Source: a virus. From it: 64,000 nt of DNA. The DNA lies in the IMG/VR virus record IMGVR_UViG_3300036761_003779, positions 41,879 through 105,878 of that record; one strand, written 5' to 3'. A model generated the notes under the pieces. That model searched no databases. It saw only the letters and a program-made list of their open reading frames with translations, and had not been told where the DNA came from. Numbering within the stretch: position 1 is the first letter of the stretch; each line of letters opens with the position of its first letter. The translations under genes were made by a program, and so were the position numbers. This document shows, piece after piece, positions 4,820 through 64,000 of the stretch.

Positions 4820-7333
4820 CTACTCCTTCGGCCCGGCAACGATGATCTCGTCCCAGACCTCCATGTGGTCTACCTCGAAGCGGCGGACGTTCGTCCCCAG
4901 GACGCCGACCTGGCTCACGTGGAGGAAGGGCTGAACCCGCTTGTCCAGCCAGTCGGAGGCGCCCAGGCCGGCGAGACGGATATTCAGGGCGCTCACGGAG
5001 GACATCCCGGTCATCCAGTAGCTGATCGAGTTGACGGAGGTGTCCACCTCGAAGTAGAACTCCAGCCAGCCGGAGTCGTTGTTCGTGTTCCCGGAGGAGT
5101 CGAAGGTGGCCGCCGGTGCGCTGTTGTCGACCGGCCCGCCGGTTGAGCAGCGGGAGAACAGCTCCCAGTTCGCGCCGACGTTAGCGGTGTCATAGACCCG
5201 GAACTGGATGCACTCCGTTGTGGTCAGGCTGTTGAAGATCCCGAGCCCGTACCAGACGCACTGGTTGACCTGAATGGGGCGCGCCCGGGCGTAGAAGCGG
5301 AGCCGGCGGTAAACCGCCCCGGAGGTCCGGAGGATCCAGCAAGCCGGCCCCTCCCAGGAGAGCCCGTCCCCGGAGGCAATCCCCGCCGTGTCGATGTGGA
5401 GGATGTCCCCCTGACCCTGCATCCCGGTGCCAAAGATGTTCGTGTCGTTGAAGGAGGACGTCCCGCCGTTCCCCCAGGTTCGCGCCCACCACCGCTCGCT
5501 CCCCGGGAGCCCGATGGCCGACTCCGCGTAGTCGAAGCGGTCGACGAAGCGGTGGACGTCCGCCATCCGGCCGAAGGGCGTCCAGCGCATGATCTCCGTC
5601 CCGCGCTCGTCGAAGAGCCCAACCTGCCGGGTGGAGGGCTTCCCGAAGATGGGACCACTCGTCTGCTGCATTGGCTTGACGTTGAGCGCGTACTTGTCCG
5701 CCGCGCCCGACCCCTGAACCAGGGTCCGGAGGTCCAGGCCGCACTTCGTGTGAACCCCGGACTCCGCACCCACCGTCCCGATCCACTGCCCCAGTTGGAG
5801 GCGGCCACCCGGGCTCCCGTAGGCGGGCGCGTCGAAGTCGAGGCTCAGGAGGTCCCGCTGGTCCATCATCCCGGTCGTTGAGCTGATCCGGTTGTTCTTG
5901 GCGTTGACTAGCTTCCCGTAGCCGCGGCTCGGGGCAAGTGTGAGCATCGGCGTGCTGCTCCCGTTCCCGTCGATCCCGGGGAGGAGGAGCCCGAGCCAGT
6001 GGAGGATCGTCGAGGGTGCCGCGGAGGGCAGACCGTTGGAGAAGACCATGCGCGGCTGCATCACGGAAGCGACCTGACCGGTGAGTGCCGGCCAGGCCGG
6101 GGTGACTCCCGTCTGGAAGTCCCGGCATGCGACGGTGTTCGCCCCGACGCTGACGAAGGCGTACACGCCCGCGTAGGCGCCCGTCTTGAGCCAAATGAAC
6201 TGAACGTCCTTGTCCAGGTACCAGGCCAACGGGTTGGCGGAGGCGAAGGTGATCGTGTCCCCGGAGATGCTGCAGTTCTCGTTCCGGATCCCCCCGAACT
6301 CCTGGCAGAGCAGGAGCGGGACGGAGGAGACGTCCCCCATGAGGACCTCCAGGCTGAGCTGGAAGTAGTCGGTGCTGGCGAGCCGGCTGAGTCGGAGCTG
6401 CGCATTGTGGAGGTCGTCCGGTCCGGCGGAATCCGTGTTCATCTCCACCGCGCCGGCGTCCACCTCGATGGCGCGTCCGGAGCCCGCGGAGCCCGTACCG
6501 TCGTAGGCCAGGTCGAGGGTCGGCGGCATGAGGCCTGCCGTCACGTCGATCTGCCCCGCCGTGCTGAAGGCCACCGGCGTCCCGCCGGCACCCACGCCCG
6601 TCACCGAGCCGAGGTAGACGTAGGGATCCGTCACGCTCAGGTCCGTGTTCCTCCGGACCGTCACCCCGGTGGCCGCCGCCGTATAGTCGGTGGCCAGGAC
6701 GGAGGCGGAGCCGCTCCCCTGCCCGAGGAGCCCGGTCGTCACGACCACGTTTTGTCCGCCGGTCCACTGCACCGGGAGGTCCCGCTCGATGGCAACGTCC
6801 TCCTCCACGGTCTTCGGGGAGTTCAGCCACACCGTGACCTTCCGGCCGGCGTGGGAGACCCCGGACTCGAAGAGGGCGTCCACCACGAAGCGGAGCGTCC
6901 CGGCCACCTCCGTTACGCTGTTCGGGTTCCCGGAGAGCCCGATCCGGTCCTCCAGCATGTCGTAGTCGAGGAGCCCGGTCCGCGGGTTCCGGTCGATCCC
7001 CGTCGGGGTGAGGCAATGCCGCACGGCCGCGTAGTAGGTGACCCCCACCGTGTTCTGGAACTGGATCCCCGTCGCGTCCCCGGACGCGAGGGTGAGGATC
7101 AGGACGTGCCCCTCCCCGTCGAGGCACTCGACCGGGAGCGCGTCCACCTTGAACTTGTCCGCCCCGTCCGCGGAGAGGGTGGCGGTCCCGAAGACCCCGC
7201 GGCGGCCGCCAACCACCCGGTGGAGGGTCTCGTACAGCTCCTCTGCCAGGTAGTCAAAGAAGGTGTCCTTGAACCGCGTCTGCGGGAGGTGCCGCTTGTC
7301 CGCGAAGTTTGTCCTGAGGTTCCCGGTTGGCAT
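4820..7333 (-). CDS. Large tail/adsorption protein (837 aa)
   Basis: Runs from ATG 7333. The N-terminus (NLRTNFADKRHLPQTRFKDT) precedes a region like baseplate-attached proteins (ATGIQFQNTVGVTYYAAVRH). A long Gly/Thr/Ser-rich beta-structured body follows. The last third (YRRLRFYARARPIQVNQCVW ... FEVDTSVNSISYWMTGMSSV) looks like a jelly-roll or lectin-like domain. Size, composition and position between the I-like baseplate gene and the lysis cassette suggest a tail fibre or receptor-binding protein. The exact fold cannot be read from sequence alone. Confidence 0.7.
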   Translation of the reverse strand: MPTGNLRTNFADKRHLPQTRFKDTFFDYLAEELYETLHRVVGGRRGVFGTATLSADGADKFKVDALPVECLDGEGHVLILTLASGDATGIQFQNTVGVTYYAAVRHCLTPTGIDRNPRTGLLDYDMLEDRIGLSGNPNSVTEVAGTLRFVVDALFESGVSHAGRKVTVWLNSPKTVEEDVAIERDLPVQWTGGQNVVVTTGLLGQGSGSASVLATDYTAAATGVTVRRNTDLSVTDPYVYLGSVTGVGAGGTPVAFSTAGQIDVTAGLMPPTLDLAYDGTGSAGSGRAIEVDAGAVEMNTDSAGPDDLHNAQLRLSRLASTDYFQLSLEVLMGDVSSVPLLLCQEFGGIRNENCSISGDTITFASANPLAWYLDKDVQFIWLKTGAYAGVYAFVSVGANTVACRDFQTGVTPAWPALTGQVASVMQPRMVFSNGLPSAAPSTILHWLGLLLPGIDGNGSSTPMLTLAPSRGYGKLVNAKNNRISSTTGMMDQRDLLSLDFDAPAYGSPGGRLQLGQWIGTVGAESGVHTKCGLDLRTLVQGSGAADKYALNVKPMQQTSGPIFGKPSTRQVGLFDERGTEIMRWTPFGRMADVHRFVDRFDYAESAIGLPGSERWWARTWGNGGTSSFNDTNIFGTGMQGQGDILHIDTAGIASGDGLSWEGPACWILRTSGAVYRRLRFYARARPIQVNQCVWYGLGIFNSLTTTECIQFRVYDTANVGANWELFSRCSTGGPVDNSAPAATFDSSGNTNNDSGWLEFYFEVDTSVNSISYWMTGMSSVSALNIRLAGLGASDWLDKRVQPFLHVSQVGVLGTNVRRFEVDHMEVWDEIIVAGPKE

Positions 7334-7342
7334 GTCTTCTCC

Positions 7343-8878
7343 TTATGACGGCCCGCCGCCCGTCCCGTAGATCCCGATGGACATCTCCGGGCCGATCCGG
7401 ACGGACTCGAGTGGGTGCCGGAACATCTCCACGTAGGTAGCCGTGAGACGCTGGGACGTCCCGGCGGCCAGCTCCAGGCACCCGGAGACCAGAGCGGAGT
7501 CCGTGACCTCCCCCAGGTGCTTCCCGTCCAGCTCCGCCTGGATGAGGTTCCCGCCACCGCTGACCGGGGTCACGTCCACGGCAAAGGTGTAGTTCAGGTC
7601 GAAGTGGAAGACCGGGAGCGGGACCGTCAGGAGGGAGGTCCGCGCGCCGGCCAGGACCCGATCGACCGTCACGGTGGCGCCGACCCCGCCCGTGGCGGTG
7701 AGGCGCAGCGCGTAGAAGTTGGAGGCGTCCTGGTGGTAAAAGCGGAACTCCCCCCAGCGCCCGACCACGTTCATCCCCAGCCGGAACCGCGCCAGGGCGT
7801 AGTAGTTGACCCAGGTCCCGGAGTTGTCCCGATCCACCCGGATCACGGAGTCCTCGACGCCGCTCAGGAGCTGGACCTCCCCCGCGTCCTGGTCCGAGGT
7901 CGCCTCCCCGGAGACAACGGTCCAGTCGAAGGTCCGCCGGAAGGAGTCCAGGAAGGTCACGTATCGGATGAAGATCCGCTCATTGGCCGAGCGGAGGACC
8001 CGGGTCAGGTTCTCGACCAGCTCCCGGTTCAGGTCCCCGTTGTCCGGGACCCGGAGGTCCGAGCAGTACTCGTCCGGGTCCACGCCCACCCGGTAGCTGT
8101 TCTCGAAGAGGGGCTCGCCCCCGGGCGCCAGGCCCAGTGCGACGGAGGGCGTGCTGACCTTGTTCTCCAGGGTCAGCGGATCCCAGTAGGAGGTGAGCGT
8201 GGCCACCACCCCCCGGGTCGTCAGACAGGTGACGCGGACCCGATGTGGGACCGCTTCCCCGCTCCCCAGGAGCCCGTTCACGCTGAAGTGGATTAGCCCG
8301 GGTCCGACCACCGTGACCTCGTCCGGCGGGATGGAGACCTCCATCCCCGGCGCGTCGATGAGCCACGGGTCCACGTCCGGGATCTCCTCGAAGCCCAGCT
8401 CCGCGGAGTCGACCAGGACCCTGAAGAGGAAGTAGTTGACGATCCGGACCTCCCCCACCATGACCGCCTCGAGGACCTCCTGGAGGCCCGCCTCCGTCCC
8501 CTTCCGCTTCCAGGTCCGGACGGCCATTGCGACGAGCCGCCGCAGCTCCGCCTCCGTGAGGTTCCCGGTGAGGTAGTCCAGGGTGGAGGTCAGGCCGACG
8601 AGCCACTTGACGTGCTTCAGCGCCGCCAGGGTGGTGTGCTCCACGTCGTAGAGGAGACGGAGGGTCTGAACCCGCTCGTACGTGTCCTCGAACTCGCTCT
8701 GCGCCGCCGCCAGCCAGCGGAGGATCAGCTCCCCTCCCTCCGCCTTGTCCGAGTCCCGGAGGGACTGGATGAGCATCATGTAGATGTCGTGCGGGAACGC
8801 CTCCGCCTCCATCGTCCGGTAGGCGATAAAGGAGATCGCGGAGGGGTCGATGGGATTGTTGACAAGGTCGGAGATCAT
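7343..8878 (-). CDS. Tail/baseplate protein with P2 gpI-like N-terminal domain (511 aa)
   Basis: ATG 8878 follows a GGAGGG site. In residues 1-150 the segment VKWLVGLTSTLDYLTGNLTE...RLVAMAVRTWKRKGTEAGL matches the pattern of the phage tail protein I / TIGR02242 group (a WL..LG core followed by a helix with RR.L...A...+.+G...GL). These proteins join the baseplate wedge to tail fibres. The remaining 350 residues are beta-rich (YRVGVDPDEYCSDL; VVGRWGEFRFYHQDASNFYA), with a lectin-like appended module. It lies downstream of the J-like gene as in other contractile phages, though separated by several large adsorption genes. Confidence 0.75.
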   Translation of the reverse strand: MISDLVNNPIDPSAISFIAYRTMEAEAFPHDIYMMLIQSLRDSDKAEGGELILRWLAAAQSEFEDTYERVQTLRLLYDVEHTTLAALKHVKWLVGLTSTLDYLTGNLTEAELRRLVAMAVRTWKRKGTEAGLQEVLEAVMVGEVRIVNYFLFRVLVDSAELGFEEIPDVDPWLIDAPGMEVSIPPDEVTVVGPGLIHFSVNGLLGSGEAVPHRVRVTCLTTRGVVATLTSYWDPLTLENKVSTPSVALGLAPGGEPLFENSYRVGVDPDEYCSDLRVPDNGDLNRELVENLTRVLRSANERIFIRYVTFLDSFRRTFDWTVVSGEATSDQDAGEVQLLSGVEDSVIRVDRDNSGTWVNYYALARFRLGMNVVGRWGEFRFYHQDASNFYALRLTATGGVGATVTVDRVLAGARTSLLTVPLPVFHFDLNYTFAVDVTPVSGGGNLIQAELDGKHLGEVTDSALVSGCLELAAGTSQRLTATYVEMFRHPLESVRIGPEMSIGIYGTGGGPS

Positions 8879-10277: not shown

Positions 10278-12715
10278 GAGAGCACCCCCAGCGCGTAGGT
10301 GTGCCGCGCGTCCTCGGTCAGAAGCCCCTCCGCCCAGACCGTGTGCGTGTTCAGGTGGATGACCACGACCCGGTTGACGGCCTGGCCCCAGTCAAGGTTG
10401 CAGACCAGGAACTCGTCAGAGCCGTCCCGCGCGTAGGCGATGGCGGAGACCGCCAGGAAGGGCGGGAGGATGTCGTGGTTGGACCCGGGCTTGTAGACCG
10501 GGCAGCCGTACTCGAACGCCCACGCCCCGGGCCACTCCGAGACGTAGATCCCGTCGTCCGTGGCCACGTACAGCCGCGTGGGGGAGGGGCGGAGGGCCAG
10601 CCGCCACTGGGCCACGTACGAGGCCGGGTAGTGCGGCCACTCCTTCATGTACTGCGTGGCAAACGGGAAGCCGTCGAAGCCCGCCTCCCAGGCGGTCTTG
10701 GGGGCGGAGCGGATCCTCCGCGTGCTTGTCTCGATCCAGAGGACCTGTCCGGAGGGGTCGAAGGCGCACCACTCCACGCCGTCCTCGTCCACGGAGTAGG
10801 TGCTCTCCGGGTTCGGGGCGGCCGCCAGGAAGTTGCCGGGCTTCGAGCGGAAGATCTCCAGGCCGAGGCCGCCGCCCACCGCCCAGTGAAGGTAGCCCCC
10901 GGAGTCCTCCTGGTCGTAGAGCGCGACGGAGTTGCTCCCGTAGGTCTTCACCGCCCAGTCGTCGTAGTCCCCCTGGTACCCCTTCCCGGCGTTTCGGTGG
11001 ACCAGCGCCCCGGAGGCGTGCTGGCTCCCGCAGTAGAAGCCCCCGCAGATCGTCGAGGCCGCCAGCCGGTGAATCCGCGCCCGGTCCAGGCGGAAGTCGA
11101 TGAGGATGGCCCCACCCTCGACCGTCCAGGAGCAGCCCACGCTGTAGGAGATCAGGAGGACCCCGTTGCACCACGCGACCCGGTGGACGTAAGGGCTCGA
11201 GCCGTCGTGGAGGAGGTTGTTCGTCCCCCGGTTGAAGCCCATCCAGAGCTTCTTCGCCGCCGCGTCCATCAGCTCGATGGAGGTGGCGGTTGTCAGCACG
11301 GCCAGCTCCGCCGGCATGTCCGCCAGGAGGCCGCGCTCCGCGCCCGCGACCGCCCCCTCCCGGTACCAGCCGGCCCGGTTGGACGTCAGGCCGGAGTTGA
11401 TGGCGAAGCTCGAGAACTTCACGGAGCCCGTCCGGGAGGCGGACCCATCCATCCCAAGGTGGACGTAGACGTCCCCCTGCAGCGACGCGTGGGTGTAGTT
11501 GCTCCCAACCTGGACCCACGTGGCGCCGCTCCAGCGGTAGCCGGAGAGCGTCCCGGCAACCCGGGTGATCCGCAGCTTCCCGGAGACGTCCGAGGTCGTG
11601 AAGGTCCCGAGGGAGACCCAGGTCCCGGACTGCTCCCGCGCCGCCTCGTAGCGCCCGCCGGAGACGTTCCCGCGCCGCTGGATCTGGAAGTCGTTCGACC
11701 CACCGGCGCCGCCCACGTTGGCGGCAACGAACATGATCGCGGTGATCTCGTCCCCGCTGACCGTGTAGGCGGCGAAGTCGGCCTGGATGTCGAAGTCCCC
11801 CGTCAGGAGGACCCACTTCAGGTCGGAGGTCACGCGCGCGGTCTGGTAGCCCCAGGCCGGCGTCCCAAGGTGCGTGAACGTCAGCTCCCCGTCCGCGGTC
11901 AGCGTCGCGGTCCCGTAGGCGTCCGACCACCCAAGCGGGTCCTCCCCCGGGAAGCGCCACGCCAGCCGGTTCTTCCCGCCCGCCATCGACCCGAAGCCGC
12001 CCGGCCCGCACTCCTCCCCGTGGTCGTAGAAGCGCCCGTTGCGTGCCGCCCCCGTGTGCCCGAGGCCCGGCGTCCCGAACGTCCCCCGCGTCGTGTCGAC
12101 GAGGATGGCGTCGTAGTGCCAGGCCGCGTTCGCCGTCTCCCGCCCGTCCGCGTCGTAGATGTCGTCCCCCCAGTCCGAGAGCCCGGAGCCCGGGAGGGAC
12201 AGCTCCCAGTTGAGGGTGTCCTCCGCCCCGCCGCGGTCCAGGGCGCCGAGGAGGACGCCCCGGCTCTCCCCCGCGACGGCGTCGTGGAGCAGGATCCGGT
12301 CCGCCGGGCGCGTGAACTCGACCGCGCCCGCGAAGAGGTGGACCAGCCGGTCCTCCAGGCTCCCCGCCTGCGCGCTCTCGTCCGCCCGGGACATGAGCTG
12401 GTCGCCGAGCGTGAGCGGGTCCGCGCCCCAGAGCCGCGGCTGCCGCGGGTCGAGCCCGGGGTTAAGGAGCGCCGCCGCGTCGAAGGCCCCGGCCCCGGGG
12501 TCCGGGCCGCTCGGGGTCCCCGCCCCGTCGTCACCCGTCACGTCCAGCGGGCTCCGGCTCGCCCGCCCCGGAACGCGCTGGCCCATCCCGGCCGCCTGCC
12601 CGCCCACGCCCTCCGCGGCCGCCGGCCCGCCCGCGTCCGCCTGCTCCCCGGCGTCAAACGCCCCGCCGCCGGGGTAGGAGTTGGTGGGGAAGTTGTCTCG
12701 CTCTTGGTCCGCCAT
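10274..12715 (-). CDS. Large beta-propeller-like adsorption protein A (813 aa)
   Basis: The N-terminal 90 residues are low-complexity Gly/Ala/Pro (GGGAFDAGEQADAGGPAAAE). A SLEDRL helix follows, then a lectin/laminin-G-like region (LLTGDFDIQADFAAYTVSGD ... FQIQRRGNVSGGRYEA). The C-terminal half has recurring W/Y-G-D blades (KKLWMGFNRGTNN, GVLLISYSVGCSW, GLGLEIFRSKPG, TRLYVATDDGIYVSEW) that look like a beta-propeller. It overlaps its downstream neighbour by 4 nt. The protein downstream of the wedge genes has a similar propeller; both are probably tail-tip or baseplate receptor-binding components. Confidence 0.65.
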   Translation of the reverse strand: MADQERDNFPTNSYPGGGAFDAGEQADAGGPAAAEGVGGQAAGMGQRVPGRASRSPLDVTGDDGAGTPSGPDPGAGAFDAAALLNPGLDPRQPRLWGADPLTLGDQLMSRADESAQAGSLEDRLVHLFAGAVEFTRPADRILLHDAVAGESRGVLLGALDRGGAEDTLNWELSLPGSGLSDWGDDIYDADGRETANAAWHYDAILVDTTRGTFGTPGLGHTGAARNGRFYDHGEECGPGGFGSMAGGKNRLAWRFPGEDPLGWSDAYGTATLTADGELTFTHLGTPAWGYQTARVTSDLKWVLLTGDFDIQADFAAYTVSGDEITAIMFVAANVGGAGGSNDFQIQRRGNVSGGRYEAAREQSGTWVSLGTFTTSDVSGKLRITRVAGTLSGYRWSGATWVQVGSNYTHASLQGDVYVHLGMDGSASRTGSVKFSSFAINSGLTSNRAGWYREGAVAGAERGLLADMPAELAVLTTATSIELMDAAAKKLWMGFNRGTNNLLHDGSSPYVHRVAWCNGVLLISYSVGCSWTVEGGAILIDFRLDRARIHRLAASTICGGFYCGSQHASGALVHRNAGKGYQGDYDDWAVKTYGSNSVALYDQEDSGGYLHWAVGGGLGLEIFRSKPGNFLAAAPNPESTYSVDEDGVEWCAFDPSGQVLWIETSTRRIRSAPKTAWEAGFDGFPFATQYMKEWPHYPASYVAQWRLALRPSPTRLYVATDDGIYVSEWPGAWAFEYGCPVYKPGSNHDILPPFLAVSAIAYARDGSDEFLVCNLDWGQAVNRVVVIHLNTHTVWAEGLLTEDARHTYALGVLS

Positions 12716-58338: not shown

Positions 58339-58670
58339 CGCGCCCTCTCGAACCGCCGCGCCCGGCGCGCCGCCCAGGCGACCGCCGCGGCGAAGGTCGT
58401 GTCCCGCTCCGCGTCCCGGTCCCAGCTCCGGGCGCACGCGGCGCAGAAGAGCATCCCGGAGCGCGGCCGCTCCGCGCAGACCAGGCAGGAGAGGTCGAGC
58501 CGCTTCCGCCGCTCCCTGGGCCCGTGGGTCTCCTCCGTCCCGTCCCCGCTCCCGGCCTCCCCGCACTTCTCGCACATCCAGCGGTAGCGCCGGCGGCCGC
58601 GGACCTCCCGGAAGACCCGCTCCCCGGCCAGGACCTCGTAGGCGAGCCGCCCGCCGCATGGCTTCCTCAC
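58323..58670 (-). CDS. Zinc-ribbon protein (115 aa)
   Basis: GTG 58670 overlaps the thyX stop (GTGA) and follows GGGGAGG. Contains WMCEKCGEAGSG, LSCLVCAERPRSGMLFCAAC, ARSWDRD: two CxxC pairs plus one more, fitting a zinc ribbon, and a basic end. Could be an accessory to nucleotide or DNA metabolism. Confidence 0.55.
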   Translation of the reverse strand: MRKPCGGRLAYEVLAGERVFREVRGRRRYRWMCEKCGEAGSGDGTEETHGPRERRKRLDLSCLVCAERPRSGMLFCAACARSWDRDAERDTTFAAAVAWAARRARRFERARCGSR

Positions 58671-59452
58671 GGCATCTCCTCCCCGGAGTGCGTCCGGAGC
58701 CCCTCCAGAACAACCGGGCAGACCTCCCGGAAGTGCTCGAGGACCTCCCGGACGCACTTCTTGATCTGCCACTGGGCGTGCTTGTCCAGGCGCATCCGGA
58801 AGACGTGCCGCCACTCCCGGAGGTTGAAGGTGGTGTACACCTCCGTCTTGGTGGCGTTCGGGAGGACCTCCCGCGCGTCCTCCGCCGGTATTCCGTCCTC
58901 CCGCAGGGCCATGTAGGTGCTGTACGCCAGGAGGGCGTCCCAGCAGAAGCGGAACAGCGGCGTGTCCGCCACGAGGTGCTCCGAGACCGGCTGGGAGGGG
59001 TGGGAGACGTCCACGACGGCGTGTCCGCCGGTGTCCAGGATCCGGACCACGCTCCCGGGCATGGGCGTCCCGATGGAGGGCGGGACGACGACCTTCAGCC
59101 GCGCCTTCCCCTCCTCCCCCGCGTAGTCGCAGAACCGCTGGGACTCCTGAGTGTAGGCGGCAATCCGGTGCCGGACGAGCTGGTGGGACATCGAGCGGCT
59201 CCCGATGAGGCAGGCCGTGAAGGAGGCGTGCTCGAGGATGCTCTCGTGCCCCCACTCGATGGCCACCTTCCGGACGAAGGGCTCCGCGCTCCCCGGCCGG
59301 ATCCGCCCCTCGCTCTTGTGGGAGACCCGGCCGCACTCCTCAACGAGCCGGAGCGCCCTTGCGGCCCACTCCGGGTCCTCCCGCGCCGTCACCAGCTCCG
59401 CGTGAGGCTCGACGACCTCCAGCTCGACCGCCTTCATCCACATTGTGCTCAT
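58667..59452 (-). CDS. thyX: Flavin-dependent thymidylate synthase ThyX (261 aa)
   Basis: The ThyX signature RHRx7S is present as RHRIAAYTQES (residues 94-104) followed by QRF. Other family features are GHESILEHASFTACL, SRSMSHQLVRH, and the C-terminal TFNLREWRHVFRMRLDKHAQ, W..+. The enzyme makes dTMP from dUMP using FAD and methylene-tetrahydrofolate. It is flanked by dCMP-deaminase-like and DUF3310 genes, so the group directs pyrimidines to thymidine synthesis. Confidence 0.95.
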   Translation of the reverse strand: MSTMWMKAVELEVVEPHAELVTAREDPEWAARALRLVEECGRVSHKSEGRIRPGSAEPFVRKVAIEWGHESILEHASFTACLIGSRSMSHQLVRHRIAAYTQESQRFCDYAGEEGKARLKVVVPPSIGTPMPGSVVRILDTGGHAVVDVSHPSQPVSEHLVADTPLFRFCWDALLAYSTYMALREDGIPAEDAREVLPNATKTEVYTTFNLREWRHVFRMRLDKHAQWQIKKCVREVLEHFREVCPVVLEGLRTHSGEEMP

Positions 59453-59675
59453 CCGCGTTCCCGCCTTTCCGCCGCACGAGCCGCCGGAGGTACCAGAGCG
59501 CCTTCTCCAGGTCCTTCAGCTCCGCCTCCCCGCCCTTCCGGCCCGCGCGCGCCACGTACTTGACCACGTTCCCCGCGTGGAAGCCCAGCTCCCACGCCTC
59601 GATGGCGTCGATGACCTCGATCCCGCCCAGGCAGTAGTGGGAGGGGTGGTCGATCTCCCTGCGGTTCACTTCCAT
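59340..59675 (-). CDS. DUF3310-family protein (111 aa)
   Basis: ATG 59675 follows GGGAGG (7-nt spacing). Residues 8-65 (IDHPSHYCLGGIEVIDAIEA, WELGFHAGNVVKYVARAGRK, GGEAELKDLEKALWYLRRLV) match DUF3310, found in many phages near nucleotide-metabolism genes. The C-terminal 40 residues overlap thyX in another frame and look unconstrained, so the functional domain ends at about residue 70. Role unknown. Confidence 0.85.
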   Translation of the reverse strand: MEVNRREIDHPSHYCLGGIEVIDAIEAWELGFHAGNVVKYVARAGRKGGEAELKDLEKALWYLRRLVRRKGGNADEHNVDEGGRAGGRRASRGAGDGAGGPGVGRKGAPAR

Positions 59676-60346
59676 CCGAGCGCCTCCCGGACGTCCAGGC
59701 GCTCGACCTGGACCCCGTTCCGCTTGAGGATCTTCATGGCGTCCCCCGATAACCCGTAGCGGCTGTCGTAGGGCTCCGCAAAGACCACGCGCGCCACCCG
59801 GACCCGGAGGAACCGCTTGGCGCAGTCCCAGCAGGCGCCCGCCGTCGTGTAGACCGTCGCGCCCGCCGGCGTCGTCCCGTCCAGCGCGCACTGCAGCAGG
59901 GCGTTCTCCTCCGCGTGGAGGGTCCGGACGCAGTGCTCGCCCCGGATGAGGTGCCCGCCGCTCAGCTCACCGCCGCACTTGGGGCACTTCCCGGCCTGGA
60001 TCTCCGCCTTCCCGAAGCCCCGCTCGTCCGTCCCCTCCGGGAAGCCCCCGGACCAGTCCGCGTCGCAGCCCAGACACCTCAGCTCGAAGCAGTGCGGCTC
60101 CCCGGGCGGGCTCCCGTTGTAGCCCCCGGCGATGATGCGGTGCTCCCGGACCAGGACCGCGCCCACGCCGTGCCGCCCGGCGTCCAGGAGCAGCTCCGGC
60201 CCCCGGTCGCAGGTCGAGCGGGTGGCCGCCAGGTGGGCGTGGAGCATGAAGAAATACGGCCAGTCGAGCCTTGGAATCCTCAGACGACTCGGCTGTACGC
60301 CTTTCCTAACAGGATCGCGCGAACTGTACGAACGGAAACGCTCCAT
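59666..60346 (-). CDS. dCMP deaminase-like protein with altered 5' end (226 aa)
   Basis: The core ([60 protein letters not shown]) has the cytidine/dCMP-deaminase zinc site: HAE and CWDC. The position before the first Cys is Ala where the family usually has Pro. A zinc-ribbon insert ([12 protein letters not shown] ... [12 protein letters not shown]) is common in phage deaminases. The family start (about RPDWD.YF) corresponds to RLDWPYFF. In this gene it is preceded by a segment that repeats an upstream sequence with different codons. ATG 60346 lies within the HNH gene and has no good ribosome site. Confidence 0.8.
60266..60286 (-). repeat. Recoded target copy (RLRIPRL) joined to the deaminase
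   Basis: Encodes RLRIPRL directly before DWPYFF of the deaminase. The upstream fragment at 61107-61127 encodes RLRVPRL with a different codon at every position. Flanking residues (R-R/K-G before it) are also similar. Confidence 0.55.
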
Positions 60347-60894
60347 TCTCGAGCCAACTTTCTATGAGATGTTGCACCCAGCGCGTAGGACGCGCGGATC
60401 TCTCGAACCGCCTCATCCGTCAACTTCCGGAGACTCTTCCTCTGGTCCGCGCTGTAGTGCCGCTCCCCGCGCGGGACCTTCTCCGGTGACGTCTGGGTAT
60501 AGTGCCGCTCCCCGCGCGGGACCTTCTCCGGGCGTACACGGGAGTAGTGGACGTCCCCGCGCGGGACCTTCTCCGGGTTCCGCCGCGTCCAATGGGCGTC
60601 CCCGCTCGGGTAGAGCCCCTTTGCCGCGGCGTCCGCGCAGTTGTCCACGTGGGTCCCAAGGAAGAGATGACCCGGGTTCACGCAGCGCTTGTTGTCACAT
60701 GAGTGAAGAACGAACGCCCCCTTCGAGATCTCCCCGCGGGAGAGGATCCAGGCCACGCGGTGGGCGCCCTCCAGCACTCCCCGGAATGCAAACTTCCCGT
60801 AGCCGCTCCGGAAGATAGCCGCCGTCCAGTTCCAGCACTCCGCCTCCCCGCCACGGATGTACTTCTCGTCGAACCTGGCTTGGAGCGTCTTCAC
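60280..60894 (-). CDS. HNH homing endonuclease 1 (204 aa)
   Basis: HNH core: [56 protein letters not shown], with the paired Cys and the HNH histidines. A tandem repeat linker follows: three units of PEKVPRG(D/E)(V/R)HY plus five more residues (15 aa each) and a degenerate first unit. The C-terminus ([37 protein letters not shown]) is a helix-turn-helix. It starts in ATGA overlap with the ribbon-helix-helix gene, and its last 67 nt overlap the deaminase start in another frame. A mobile homing cassette is the best reading. Confidence 0.85.
60442..60576 (-). repeat. Three 45-bp tandem repeats in HNH gene 1
   Basis: Encode three 15-residue units beginning PEKVPRG(E/D) in the linker between nuclease and helix-turn-helix. 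A fourth, diverged unit ([12 protein letters not shown]) precedes them. Near-identical DNA indicates recent duplication. Confidence 0.7.
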
Positions 60895-61043
60895 CTCCGC
60901 CCCTCCATCTCCCGCCGGAGTAGCTCCCGGACGAACTCAGACTTTGTACAGCCTAGCCGCTCGCACTCCTCCTCGAGCCACTTCATCAGAACCGGGGGGA
61001 GCCACGCAAATAGCTTCTCGATGTTCTTCTTTGGTCTTGTCAT
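60891..61043 (-). CDS. Ribbon-helix-helix (CopG-like) protein, leaderless (50 aa)
   Basis: ATG 61043 is 6 nt from a near-consensus -10 box, so the transcript should be leaderless. The protein ([49 protein letters not shown]) has a beta strand and two helices with the [10 protein letters not shown] signature. It probably represses its own promoter and controls the coupled HNH gene (ATGA overlap). A longer in-frame reading upstream to 61286 exists but crosses the promoter and a truncated gene. Confidence 0.75.
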
Positions 61044-61049
61044 GAACCT

Positions 61050-61078
61050 ATTATAGATACCTAGACAGGTTCTGTAAA
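61050..61078 (-). promoter_or_regulatory. Near-consensus sigma70-type promoter for RHH-HNH cassette
   Basis: -35 TTTACA (61073-61078), 17-bp spacer, -10 TATAAT (61050-61055), then 6 nt to ATG 61043. An inverted repeat ACAG-AAC-CTGT overlaps the -35 side and may be the operator for the encoded RHH protein. It is the most AT-rich spot in this part of the window. Confidence 0.75.
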
Positions 61079-61106
61079 GAAACGGAAGACGTTCATCTTC
61101 AGAGGG

Positions 61107-61286
61107 CAGTCGCGGAACCCGGAGCCGCGCCTCCTCCCGCCCGCGCCTCCGCGCCTCGTCCAGGGCCAGCCGGACGGACTCCACGCTCCCGAGGTTGACC
61201 ATCAGGGTCCAGGGCGCCTCCGGTTTGGACGCCCCGCGCATGTTCGCGCCCGTCCGCGGGTCGTCCGAGAAGTCGGTTTCGCTCAT
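61107..61286 (-). pseudogene. Displaced 5' gene fragment (possibly native start of the deaminase gene)
   Basis: ATG 61286 overlaps the glycosylase stop (ATGA) and the first 60 codons look coding (SETDFSDDPRTGANMRGASK ... LDEARRRGREEARLRVPRL). After RLRVPRL the sequence changes to the AT-richer RHH-HNH cassette. The next gene downstream resumes after a recoded RLRIPRL with DWPYFF. So this fragment is probably the original 5' end of the deaminase gene (or of a gene ending there), cut off by insertion. In frame it reads through into the RHH gene. Confidence 0.55.
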
Positions 61287-61831
61287 TCCACGTCCTCCAC
61301 GACGTTGTCCGCGGTTGCCGCGGCGCGCCAGATCTCCAGGTCCAGCCCCCGAGGGGTCTTCCCGGCCGCCTCCGCCTCCCGCAGGTAGATGGCCTCCAGC
61401 GCCCCGTAGAGGCGCCCGGAACCTGGTGGGGTACTAGGAGTCGGGTGCCCGCGCTCACGTAACCAGCGGAGCACGTGGCGGTCCAGGACAGCGTATTTCT
61501 CCCACGGCCGGGTCCAGGTCACGAAGAAGCGGCTCGTCTTGGGCCCAATCCCCGGGATCCGCTCCAGCTCCTCCGGGGTGACCGCGAAGAGGTCCAGCCC
61601 CGCCTCCCGGAGCGCCCGGCACGCGGCCTCCAGCTTCCCGTAGTTGCCCGTGCGGGCGGCCCGGAGGAAGGGTCCCGGCTCCCCGACCCCGAGGAACAGG
61701 ATGGGGATCCGGAGGCAGCCGCGCGGGATGACCTCCTGGAGCCGCTTGACCGCCCCGTTGGCGAACCGCGCGGACTTCCCGGCCACGACAAGGGCGTAGA
61801 CCAGCCGCCACTCGAGCTGAGCGCGGGTCAC
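61283..61831 (-). CDS. HhH-GPD DNA glycosylase (182 aa)
   Basis: GTG 61831 overlaps the previous stop (GTGA). Contains the helix-hairpin-helix LERIPGIGPKTSRFFVTW, an aspartate-bearing loop AVLDRHVLRWL, and an N-terminal helical region VYALVVAGKSARFANGAVKR. This matches base-excision glycosylases of the endonuclease III/OGG superfamily. No FeS cluster cysteines are visible. It may remove damaged or non-standard bases in phage or host DNA. Confidence 0.75.
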   Translation of the reverse strand: MTRAQLEWRLVYALVVAGKSARFANGAVKRLQEVIPRGCLRIPILFLGVGEPGPFLRAARTGNYGKLEAACRALREAGLDLFAVTPEELERIPGIGPKTSRFFVTWTRPWEKYAVLDRHVLRWLRERGHPTPSTPPGSGRLYGALEAIYLREAEAAGKTPRGLDLEIWRAAATADNVVEDVE

Positions 61832-62046
61832 CGGCACCTGCCCCTCCGGCAGTCCCGGGAGGCGCACTCCCGGTCTTGCCGGCAAACCGCGCCCGGCGCC
61901 CAGCCCCTCGGCGCCTCGCAGCGTCCGCGCCGACAGTCCCGGGAGGCGCACTCCCGGCGGTGCTCGCAGGGCGCGCCGGCGGGCTTCTCCCAGGCGAGCC
62001 CGGGAGCGGGGAGGAGGAGCAGCGCGGCGAGGAGGGCCGGCCTCAC
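61828..62046 (-). CDS. Secreted cysteine-repeat peptide (72 aa)
   Basis: GTG 62046 overlaps the previous stop (GTGA). A clear signal peptide (RPALLAALLLLPAPGLAWEK) is followed by about 48 residues with eight cysteines in two repeats: PCEHRRECASRDCRRGRCEA and VCRQDRECASRDCRRGRC. The repeats share 24 identical bp of DNA. The Cys spacing (C-x6-C-x4-C-x4-C) suggests a small disulfide-rich fold, possibly Dickkopf/colipase-like. A secreted phage peptide among metabolism genes is unusual; a role at the cell surface is possible. Confidence 0.65.
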   Translation of the reverse strand: MRPALLAALLLLPAPGLAWEKPAGAPCEHRRECASRDCRRGRCEAPRGWAPGAVCRQDRECASRDCRRGRCR

Positions 62047-62315
62047 GGCCGCGCCTCCCCCCGCTTCCGGGCGTTCATGGCGGCCCGGCACTCGTGGCAG
62101 TTCGGCTGAAGGTCGATCACGCCGTCCCCCATGTGCCGGAGCCCAACGCGCCCGACCGCCTTGGGGCGCCGGCAGCCCTGGCAGTAGACCTTCACGCGCG
62201 CCTCCGTCCCGCCGCCCGGGGTCTCCCGGAAGGTCTCCAGGAAGCGCAGGGAGATCTCGACGTCCCCGACGTGGATGCTGGTCCCCTCGACCCGGATCTC
62301 CGGTTTTCTACTCAT
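62043..62315 (-). CDS. Small zinc-binding protein (90 aa)
   Basis: ATG 62315 overlaps the upstream stop region (ATGAGTAG). After a beta-rich start (IRVEGTSIHVGDVEISLRFL) it has YCQGCRRPKA and NCHECRAAMN, two CxxC pairs for a zinc site. Basic C-terminus. Unknown function. Confidence 0.55.
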   Translation of the reverse strand: MSRKPEIRVEGTSIHVGDVEISLRFLETFRETPGGGTEARVKVYCQGCRRPKAVGRVGLRHMGDGVIDLQPNCHECRAAMNARKRGEARP

Positions 62316-62793
62316 CCTTGTCCTCCTCCGGCTCGAACTCGGCCGCGACCCACGCGCAGTCCTCCTGGATGCCCTCGAGGCGCCCCAGCGTCCCGGGGAG
62401 GCGGTCCTCCCCGTCCTCATGCCTCCGGACCGCCCGGGCCATCTCCGCGTGCGCGAAGGTCCCGAGGGTGGCCCCGAAGACCAGCGCGCGCTCCCCCATC
62501 ACGCGGCACGTCAGGCGCGCCGCCTGGACCGTCTCGTGCTCCTCCGCGGTGAGCGCCGGGTTCACCTCGCGGACCTTCTCCGCCGCCCGGAGGAGGCTGC
62601 GGCAGGCCGCCACGAAGGTCCGGAGCGGGCTGTCCTCCGGCCCGCGCGCCACCACGGCCACCGGGATCCGATCCGGCCCGGTGACCACGGAGCACTCGAC
62701 CGCCCAGCCGTCCGCCTTGAGGTCCTTCACCAGCTCCCGCATCGCCGCCAGCTCCGCCGGCGTGAACGCGGACTCGGGCATCTTGTCAGTCAT
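62308..62793 (-). CDS. Protein of unknown function (161 aa)
   Basis: Starts ATG 62793. The first part (AAMRELVKDLKADGWAVECS, VVTGPDRIPVAVVARG) is alpha/beta; the rest is helical (AACRSLLRAAEKVREVNPAL). Acidic end. No family recognised. Packed between two small genes in the nucleotide-metabolism block. Confidence 0.6.
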   Translation of the reverse strand: MTDKMPESAFTPAELAAMRELVKDLKADGWAVECSVVTGPDRIPVAVVARGPEDSPLRTFVAACRSLLRAAEKVREVNPALTAEEHETVQAARLTCRVMGERALVFGATLGTFAHAEMARAVRRHEDGEDRLPGTLGRLEGIQEDCAWVAAEFEPEEDKDE

Positions 62794-63037
62794 CGCTCCT
62801 CCACTCGGCCAGGCGCCGCTCGAGGTCGTCCCGCTCGTCCCGGAGCGCCCGGTGGAGCGTGCCCGCCATGACCAGGTCCCGGACCAGGTTGACCACGCAG
62901 ACCGCGGAGACGTCGTCCCCGCGCGTCCGCGCCTCCCGGAGGAGGTGCTTGAGCCGGTTCCGCGCCTGCGCCGCGCGCTCCGCCGGGAGGAGGTCCGCCA
63001 GGATGATGTCCGAAATTGAGTTGGGGTCTTCCGCCAT
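62786..63037 (-). CDS. Small helical protein (83 aa)
   Basis: Mostly helical and charged (AERAAQARNRLKHLLREART, LHRALRDERDDLERRLAEWR), with LVMAGTLH in the middle. It overlaps the next gene. Could be a small regulatory or adaptor protein; unknown. Confidence 0.55.
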   Translation of the reverse strand: MAEDPNSISDIILADLLPAERAAQARNRLKHLLREARTRGDDVSAVCVVNLVRDLVMAGTLHRALRDERDDLERRLAEWRSDD

Positions 63038-63065
63038 GCTCAGGGGTAGGCGGAGATGAGCGGAC

Positions 63066-63098
63066 TCAGCCGCAGCCGGTCGTCGTCCCGCAGGTGAG
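63066..63098 (-). repeat. Displaced native reductase 3' end fused to HNH gene 2
   Basis: Ten codons (LTCGTTTGCG) plus TGA, identical in protein to 63611-63640 but with 8 synonymous codon differences. GC-rich third positions match the rest of the genome, so this appears to be the original 3' end. Confidence 0.75.
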
Positions 63099-63608
63099 GG
63101 CGTTCGAGACGTGCTTCCAGATCTGCCGATTGGCTATCCGGTCCACCGTCCGCCGATTGATCCCCACGGACTCCGCGATAACGCGCCGCGACTCAGAAGG
63201 AAGGCGGAGGAGAACCTCCCGCACGCGGTCCTCGCTCATCTTCGAGGCCCCATTCCGCTCCCCATGCGCCGCCCGCTCCGGATGGAGCCGGAGTCCGTGA
63301 CGTTCCCCGCGGACGTGGACCTGCCTCCCCTTGGCCACGCAGTCCCGGACGTTCTCCGCGTGGGTCCCCGGGATCAAGTGGCTCGGGTTGCAGCACGGTG
63401 GGTTGTCACACGTATGGCGGACCGCCTCCGCGTCCGTCGGTCCGAAGGTCAGTTCGTAGGCCATGCGGTGGGCGCCAACCTCCCGCCCGTCCCGGAAGAC
63501 CCGCCCATATCCCTTCTTGCTCCGCAGTGCGGTCCAGAGCCAGCAGGCGTCCGGTCCCCCGCTCCGGTCCACGCGGCTCCAGAAGTCCGAGTTGGGTCTC
63601 CTACGCAT
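63066..63608 (-). CDS. HNH homing endonuclease 2, ending in a copy of the reductase C-terminus (180 aa)
   Basis: ATG 63608 overlaps the reductase TAA (TAATG). HNH core: ACWLWTALRSKKGYGRVF, GAHRMAYELTFG, VRHTCDNPPCCNPSHLIPGT, HAENVRDCVAKG. A linker (RGERHGLRLHPERAAHGERN) leads to a helix-turn-helix (VREVLLRLPSESRRVIAESV, GINRRTVDRI). The last ten residues LTCGTTTGCG repeat the reductase C-terminus, using GC-rich native-style codons. Probably a mobile homing gene inserted at the reductase 3' end. Confidence 0.85.
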   Translation of the reverse strand: MRRRPNSDFWSRVDRSGGPDACWLWTALRSKKGYGRVFRDGREVGAHRMAYELTFGPTDAEAVRHTCDNPPCCNPSHLIPGTHAENVRDCVAKGRQVHVRGERHGLRLHPERAAHGERNGASKMSEDRVREVLLRLPSESRRVIAESVGINRRTVDRIANRQIWKHVSNALTCGTTTGCG

Positions 63609-63640
63609 TAGCCGCATCCCGTTGTAGTTCCGCATGTCAA
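63608..63640 (-). repeat. Recoded reductase 3' end
   Basis: Encodes LTCGTTTGCG then TAA with unusual A/T-ending codons (Leu TTG, Thr ACA/ACT, Gly GGA). The A/T-ending codons begin about seven codons earlier, suggesting that a slightly longer recoded segment arrived with the HNH cassette. Confidence 0.75.
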
Positions 63641-64000
63641 ACACCTATGGCAGTTCCCGTTTGGTTCCGTGATGGCGCCGCAGTTCGAGCAGGGCGGCCC
63701 GGAGTCGTGGATCCGCCGCGTCACGTGCTCGACCGCCGCCTCGAGCGCCTCCGCGACCGTGGCGCCGCCCGCGGGCTTCTCCGCCGCCCCGAACCGCCCA
63801 CCCGGGAAGCGCCGCTCCACCCAGCGGACCAGGTAGTCGAGCGGGGAGGTCACCGCGCCGATGTCCGGGTTGTCCGAGTAGCCGAAGGGCTCGAAGCGCG
63901 TCCGCCGGAACTTCTCCGCCAGGTCGTCCCAGGGGACCCCGTACTGGAGCGCAATCGAGATCGAGGTGGCCCAGGCGTCCATGAGGCCCCGGACCGTGCT
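63608..64000 (-). CDS. nrdJ: Class II (B12-dependent) ribonucleotide reductase, C-terminal part
   Basis: The open frame extends to the right edge; the visible residues read STVRGLMDAWATSISIALQY then GVPWDDLAEKFRRTRFEPFG, SDNPDIGAVTSPLDYLVRWV, and end with CSNCGAITEPNGNCHRCLTC and GTTTGCG. This is the normal C-terminus of adenosylcobalamin-dependent reductases, with a zinc/redox cysteine tail. It converts ribonucleotides to deoxyribonucleotides. Most of the gene lies beyond the window. Its last codons are recoded. Confidence 0.9.
   Translation of the reverse strand, partial: STVRGLMDAWATSISIALQYGVPWDDLAEKFRRTRFEPFGYSDNPDIGAVTSPLDYLVRWVERRFPGGRFGAAEKPAGGATVAEALEAAVEHVTRRIHDSGPPCSNCGAITEPNGNCHRCLTCGTTTGCG

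Follow-up and report, generated by a model that had tools for sequence, protein, structure and literature searches.

Duplicated gene ends with altered codons flank two HNH endonuclease genes of a virus genome and point to splicing-independent homing

We analyzed a 64,000-nucleotide stretch (the window; G000:C1:41879-105878) of the 105,878-bp IMG/VR virus record IMGVR_UViG_3300036761_003779 (G000; GC content ~70%), in which two HNH endonuclease genes, HNH#1 and HNH#2, stand at the ends of the genes encoding dCMP deaminase and ribonucleotide reductase (RNR), respectively. At both loci the end of the host gene is present twice, that is, one copy is joined to the functional enzyme and the other lies displaced on the far side of the HNH gene. 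The two endonucleases belong to the HNH_3 family (PF13392; 43.5 and 36.7 bits vs the curated cut-off of 24.8). The record is circularly permuted, as shown by the RNR gene, which begins close to the record's start and terminates within the window.

A duplicated gene end at the RNR locus

The features at the 3' end of the RNR gene are as follows (ORF, open reading frame; GC3, GC content at third codon positions):

63608..64000, minus strand: 3' end of the functional RNR gene (TSCPD domain; PF12637, E 2.6e-5)
63608..63640, minus strand: enzyme-side recoded RNR tail, LTCGTTTGCG + TAA (codon comparison; GC3)
63066..63644, minus strand: HNH#2 endonuclease ORF, 192 aa (PF13392, E 3.2e-9; phrog_1872, E 1.8e-30)
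63066..63098, minus strand: displaced native-codon RNR tail, LTCGTTTGCG + TGA (comparison with HNH-free relatives)

The RNR gene runs over the record end into G000:C1:1-1806, with its catalytic domain at 208-1806 (PF02867, E 1.3e-127). The enzyme ends in ...CHRC LTCGTTTGCG*; the HNH#2 frame passes through the displaced tail, takes its stop codon and ends in ...HVSNA LTCGTTTGCG*. The codons of the enzyme copy are TTG ACA TGC GGA ACT ACA ACG GGA TGC GGC TAA and those of the displaced copy are CTC ACC TGC GGG ACG ACG ACC GGC TGC GGC TGA; thus, 10 of 10 residues are identical and 7 of the 10 sense codons differ, every difference being synonymous. The GC3 of the enzyme tail is 0.50 vs 0.95 for the remainder of the 3' region, and lies below that of all windows of the same length there.

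For comparison we used five syntenic relatives picked via their dCMP deaminase (63-75% identity). Their ORFs were compared by blastp with filters, which were needed because shadow ORFs swamped the first pass; a short-pattern search did not find relatives of the RNR tail, so their tails were taken from their records instead. The RNR and dCMP deaminase gene ends of the relatives are single and uninterrupted, and none of the five carries an HNH_3 gene (vs seven in G000), that is, they represent the empty allele in the sense of the WHO and mORF systems compared below. The displaced RNR tail is nearer than the enzyme tail to four of the five relatives (8 v 12, 9 v 11, 7 v 14 and 9 v 15 mismatches).

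A search of HNH#2 against PDB with phmmer gave no match. An 83-aa ORF (62786-63037) separates the displaced RNR tail from the next conserved gene. It is unmatched in four of the relatives, and in the fifth, G004, it has a weak match only, at another place in the genome; it may have arrived together with the HNH#2 element.

A duplicated gene start at the dCMP deaminase locus

At HNH#1 it is the start of the host gene that is present twice:

61107..61286, minus strand: displaced dCMP deaminase N-terminal fragment, ending in RLRVPRL (61107-61127) (resembles the N-terminus of the intact G002 enzyme, AVRDALSEAERRGREAGLRERLRIPRLPW)
60891..61043, minus strand: small ribbon-helix-helix (CopG-type) ORF (PF01402, E 6.7e-4, slightly under the curated cut-off)
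60280..60894, minus strand: HNH#1 endonuclease ORF, 204 aa (PF13392, E 2.5e-11; phrog_1872, E 2.4e-24)
60266..60286, minus strand: enzyme-side copy, RLRIPRL (codon comparison; GC3)
59666..60346, minus strand: restored functional dCMP deaminase ORF (phrog_174, E 6.5e-37; PF00383, E 9.3e-15)

HNH#1 stands between the old N-terminus (RLRVPRLP) and the working enzyme (RLRIPRL); the ribbon-helix-helix ORF lies between the displaced start and HNH#1 and is in frame with that start. The first ATG of the deaminase ORF (60346), a candidate start only, is within HNH#1. The displaced copy reads CGG CTC CGG GTT CCG CGA CTG and the enzyme copy CGT CTG AGG ATT CCA AGG CTC, so that all seven codons differ (six synonymously, plus one V/I exchange); the GC3 of the enzyme copy is 0.57 vs 0.97 for the remainder of the gene. 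Codon alignment thus bears out both duplications, which an earlier note on this DNA had placed here.

In the relatives the N-terminus is continuous (e.g., RERLRIPRLPWDQFF in G002 and MFRIPRLPWDEFF in G003), and set against G002 the junction is a mosaic: the displaced CGGCTCCGG is identical to G002, and the enzyme-side ATTCCAAGGCTC is at most one base away from it. Since the first three displaced codons and the last four enzyme codons look native, the insertion point falls inside RLR/IPRL; the HNH#1 element would then bear, at each end, an altered version of the flank on the other side. Within HNH#1, tandem PEKVPRGE/D-type repeats (60450-60610) are located between the nuclease motif and a C-terminal helix-turn-helix region.

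Survey of other HNH loci

A wide six-frame duplication scan of this GC-rich genome returned many low-complexity matches; therefore, windows were narrowed to the HNH edges and two nulls were used. We then scored the peptide similarity between the edges of the HNH ORF at 261 non-redundant HNH loci from viral and genome contigs. Edge duplications scoring at least 48 were found at seven of the 261 loci, vs an expectation of 0.13 (cross-locus pairs) to 0.4 (displaced windows at the same locus). Two forms occur. In the C-type (the window RNR, L225, L243 and probably L077), a complete gene precedes the HNH gene, which runs on into the old tail; the N-type (the window dCMP deaminase and seven surveyed loci) has the old start upstream of the HNH gene, usually sharing its frame, and the gene restarts downstream. 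The surveyed cases are as follows:

L351: uracil-DNA glycosylase; N-type; score at least 48
L225: small protein of no known family; C-type; score at least 48
L243: RuvC-like by sequence, Isoptericola genome; C-type; score at least 48
L294: host gene of no assigned function; N-type; score at least 48
L060: glycosyltransferase; N-type; score at least 48
L045: DNA polymerase A; N-type; score at least 48
L025: terminase small subunit; N-type; score at least 48
L024: tail protein; N-type; shorter duplication
L304: DUF5131; N-type; shorter duplication
L077: C-type probably; shorter duplication

The last three look genuine by their gene context. Each case thus has an endonuclease gene next to a host gene that is functional and to a second, displaced copy of the end of this gene; in eight of 12 cases (the two window loci and the ten surveyed loci), the displaced piece is continuous with the HNH frame. 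The link to nucleotide metabolism proposed in the earlier note did not hold, because the host genes are mutually unrelated (e.g., terminase, tail protein, glycosyltransferase, DNA polymerase and uracil-DNA glycosylase). Its suggestion that the arrangement may be general, to be checked by a scan of HNH flanks, is borne out in part: the arrangement recurs in unrelated phages, but "many cases" is too strong for a duplication detectable in about 4% of the surveyed loci.

The HNH gene of L157 (2842-3480), a relative of that of L025 (59% identity), has a terminase-like peptide, HAAFAAEYQVN, fused ahead of the nuclease and adjoins a different downstream gene, as if a captured gene start moves with the endonuclease.

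Codon composition of the copies

Isolate relatives of L225, L294, L351 and L045 are absent or too far off to polarize the copies, and the Itty13 terminase does not polarize those of L025. Our comparison across the 12 cases is one of codon composition. The differing codons of the 12 pairs comprise 76 synonymous and 35 nonsynonymous differences, vs 25% synonymous for random changes; this synonymous share is inflated because the pairs were selected by protein similarity. That selection does not in an obvious way affect the comparison of GC3, which is lower in the functional-side copy than in the displaced copy (p=0.005) and lower than in the remainder of its gene (p=0.0015); the GC3 of the displaced copy equals that of the remainder of the gene (p=0.91). 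In a strict set of nine cases, eight are lower and one is tied (p=0.004). By this measure the altered copy is on the enzyme side and the displaced end is native, as the earlier note had proposed from the two window loci; its proposal stands for the 12 cases taken together, with the qualification that the dCMP deaminase junction is mixed.

A proposed homing mechanism and its alternatives

From this anatomy, its recurrence, the HNH-free relatives and the codon polarity we think it likely that each element homes without splicing and brings a gene end of donor origin, equivalent in protein but different in DNA. An HNH gene inserted in the host coding sequence near one end would bring with it a copy of the severed gene end; the endonuclease would cut the native site, at what is now the junction, in an empty allele, and repair would copy the element into the cut allele by gene conversion. 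The host gene would be rejoined to the donor-borne end and the recipient's own end would be moved to the far side of the HNH gene; the protein would be kept and the cleavage site would not be remade. The occupied allele would be immune because the native recognition site is split and the restored frame, with its altered codons, does not recreate it. In the C-type, the gene tail would be replaced, with the HNH frame often entering the displaced tail and taking its stop; in the N-type, the HNH gene (or the small ribbon-helix-helix ORF) would often continue from the displaced old start, with the start of the enzyme rebuilt downstream. The altered copy may be the product of selected recoding or simply a diverged donor allele.

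Several observations weigh against this interpretation. About 96% of the surveyed HNH loci have no such duplication, and none of eight isolate HNH loci that we checked has a convincing one. Three of the ten cases outside the window (L024, L304 and L077) are individually non-significant, and the 12 cases that entered the GC3 tests were selected on protein similarity. At the window loci themselves, the polarity of the dCMP deaminase copies is mixed, given the native-looking codons on both sides of the junction, and the RNR tail of G002 is nearer to the enzyme copy (11 mismatches) than to the displaced copy (13).

The foremost alternative, which we consider improbable, is that the HNH genes mark only the edges of recombinational exchange and the codon differences are incidental mosaic donor sequence without a protective role. 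Nuclease genes are reported at the borders of exchange between phages, and the enzyme-side copies are indeed foreign in composition; however, a recombination boundary gives no account of a displaced, protein-matching piece that abuts the far HNH edge (in frame in 8 of 12 cases), nor of the altered copy being consistently on the functional side.

An ordinary duplication on insertion, after which both copies drift in place, would place copies on both flanks of the insert as seen here, but is very unlikely. The displaced piece, free of constraint, should drift, yet its protein sequence is conserved and its composition is still that of the gene; the atypical copy is the selected, enzyme copy, and the differences are chiefly synonymous. 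The GC3 polarity therefore speaks against drift in place.

Still harder to credit is a degenerate group I intron or intein, with splicing joining the flanking pieces, although intron- and intein-borne HNH genes are frequent in phages and another HNH gene of this genome sits in an intein-like insert. Since no Rfam RNA matches at E<=1 in 58500-64000, no known intron, with its RNA structure, is recognized there, and the surveyed loci have no Rfam intron at gathering scores. An intein would be an in-frame, self-splicing protein with N- and C-terminal splice motifs; here the RNR frame terminates ahead of HNH#2, and the dCMP deaminase pieces occupy separate ORFs. The enzyme is complete without splicing, in agreement with the earlier note.

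Finally, chance peptide matches, although many of low complexity appeared in the wide scans of this genome, can be practically dismissed: the 10-residue-plus-stop RNR match is the longest common C-terminal run among 250 ORF tails on the same strand of the window (the runner-up has 7 residues and is of low complexity), the survey found seven cases where less than one was expected, and the RNR and dCMP deaminase duplications are not fortuitous because both copies of each pair are homologous to the enzyme end in the syntenic relatives.

Comparison with known homing systems

The earlier note knew of no named class that fits; however, two described systems share this plan. In the WHO elements at FBA1 of Torulaspora and Lachancea (Coughlan et al., 2020; PMC7282813), homing also needs no splicing: an essential gene has its 3' end swapped for a cleavage-resistant allele, and the old end comes to lie on the far side of the endonuclease gene. 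The WHO endonuclease differs: it is HO-like, derived from an intein and equipped with zinc fingers. WHO elements also reside in yeast nuclei, occur in clusters and involve larger 3' pieces, and no N-terminal form is described there; the phage elements encode HNH_3 proteins, have ends of about 7-30 codons and come in both 5' and 3' forms. Because their proteins are HNH_3, without the HO/VDE-like endonuclease and zinc-finger domain that define the WHO family proper, they are not WHO members, though they would work alike.

In the mobile ORF (mORF) gene hybrids of fungal mitochondria (atp6, atp9, cox2 and nad3 of Glomus and atp6 of Allomyces; PMC3630166), an endonuclease ORF likewise brings a foreign C-terminus that is fused to the host gene, and the native C-terminus is moved downstream. 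The two ends are nearly identical as proteins with DNA 64-81% identical, the frames are often in phase, and the native end is like that of relatives, whereas the inserted end is not. The mORF endonucleases are LAGLIDADG or GIY-YIG proteins, and the described cases are mitochondrial and C-terminal only; the present elements are HNH, occur in phages and prophages, and are also N-terminal.

The ShiLan domain, an HNH insertion in a mycobacteriophage methylase, also shows no detectable splicing; the 11 residues with which it begins in frame are similar to the 11 on the right side of the insertion, a likeness that its authors weighed as a possible intron signature and not as a restoring copy (PMC11855218). 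In our comparison with the uninvaded Spoonbill, the right copy proved near-identical to it, and it is the left copy, SYEPVCVAVKP, that differs in DNA. The insertion differs in being mid-gene, with the host frame reading through the insert. Free-standing phage homing endonucleases (T4 Seg/Mob, Skunavirus HNH), for which the stated general model is resistance via donor sequence that replaces the target (PMC12724721), also include phage HNH genes but are usually intergenic and unconnected to their target, with no displaced coding piece and no restored gene end.

The arrangement is real and recurs at a low rate; it is best regarded as a variant of WHO/mORF-type homing that uses phage HNH genes and adds an N-terminal form. 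In the literature that we searched, no description of such elements as a phage class was found, which is not proof of novelty. We lean, by a narrow balance, toward the broader proposal that phages have a recurrent, undescribed HNH homing class that carries its own recoded rescue of the cut gene end, including an N-terminal form whose endonuclease uses the original start codon of the host gene, which itself restarts from the recoded copy.

Other HNH genes of the record

The earlier note spoke of two HNH genes in the window; the full record has seven of the HNH_3 family, and a third one (10622-11161) also follows a tail shifted toward A and T at third codon positions. The gene that precedes it is SbcC-like, and its final eight codons (G000:C1:11073-11100, outside the window) are GAT AGA AGC GGA GCT TGG AAT GAG; the GC3 of that tail is 0.29 vs 0.94 for the gene, and 0.8% of windows are equally low. 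Beyond this HNH gene, GGACGGGTCCATGGCCTGA is suggestive of a decayed native SbcC-like piece.

The HNH genes at 5283 and 13295 are located at gene junctions, and the two at 8139 and 39050 lie on the strand opposite to host frames that are open; the duplication scan of G000 gave no scoreable duplication at 5283, 8040 or 13295. At G000:C1:38591-39531 (outside the window), a minus-strand helicase gene has an intein-like insert at its P-loop (GPCA/CIHGSTV...WHHN/SGKTE); an HNH_3 gene lies antisense within this insert, and the host frame is open throughout. At G000:C1:8000-8480 (also outside the window), an antisense HNH gene separates the conserved domain of a small gene from its signal-peptide region, again with the host frame open across it.

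Implications

If this interpretation is correct, WHO/mORF-type homing, known from fungi, extends to phages and prophages and to the starts of genes. The simple sequence signature would mark likely HNH targets within a few codons, so that target prediction may become possible. The odd codon patches at the ends of phage genes would also be explained, and the elements would provide a natural counterpart and model of engineered homing-and-rescue (recoded-rescue) gene drives.

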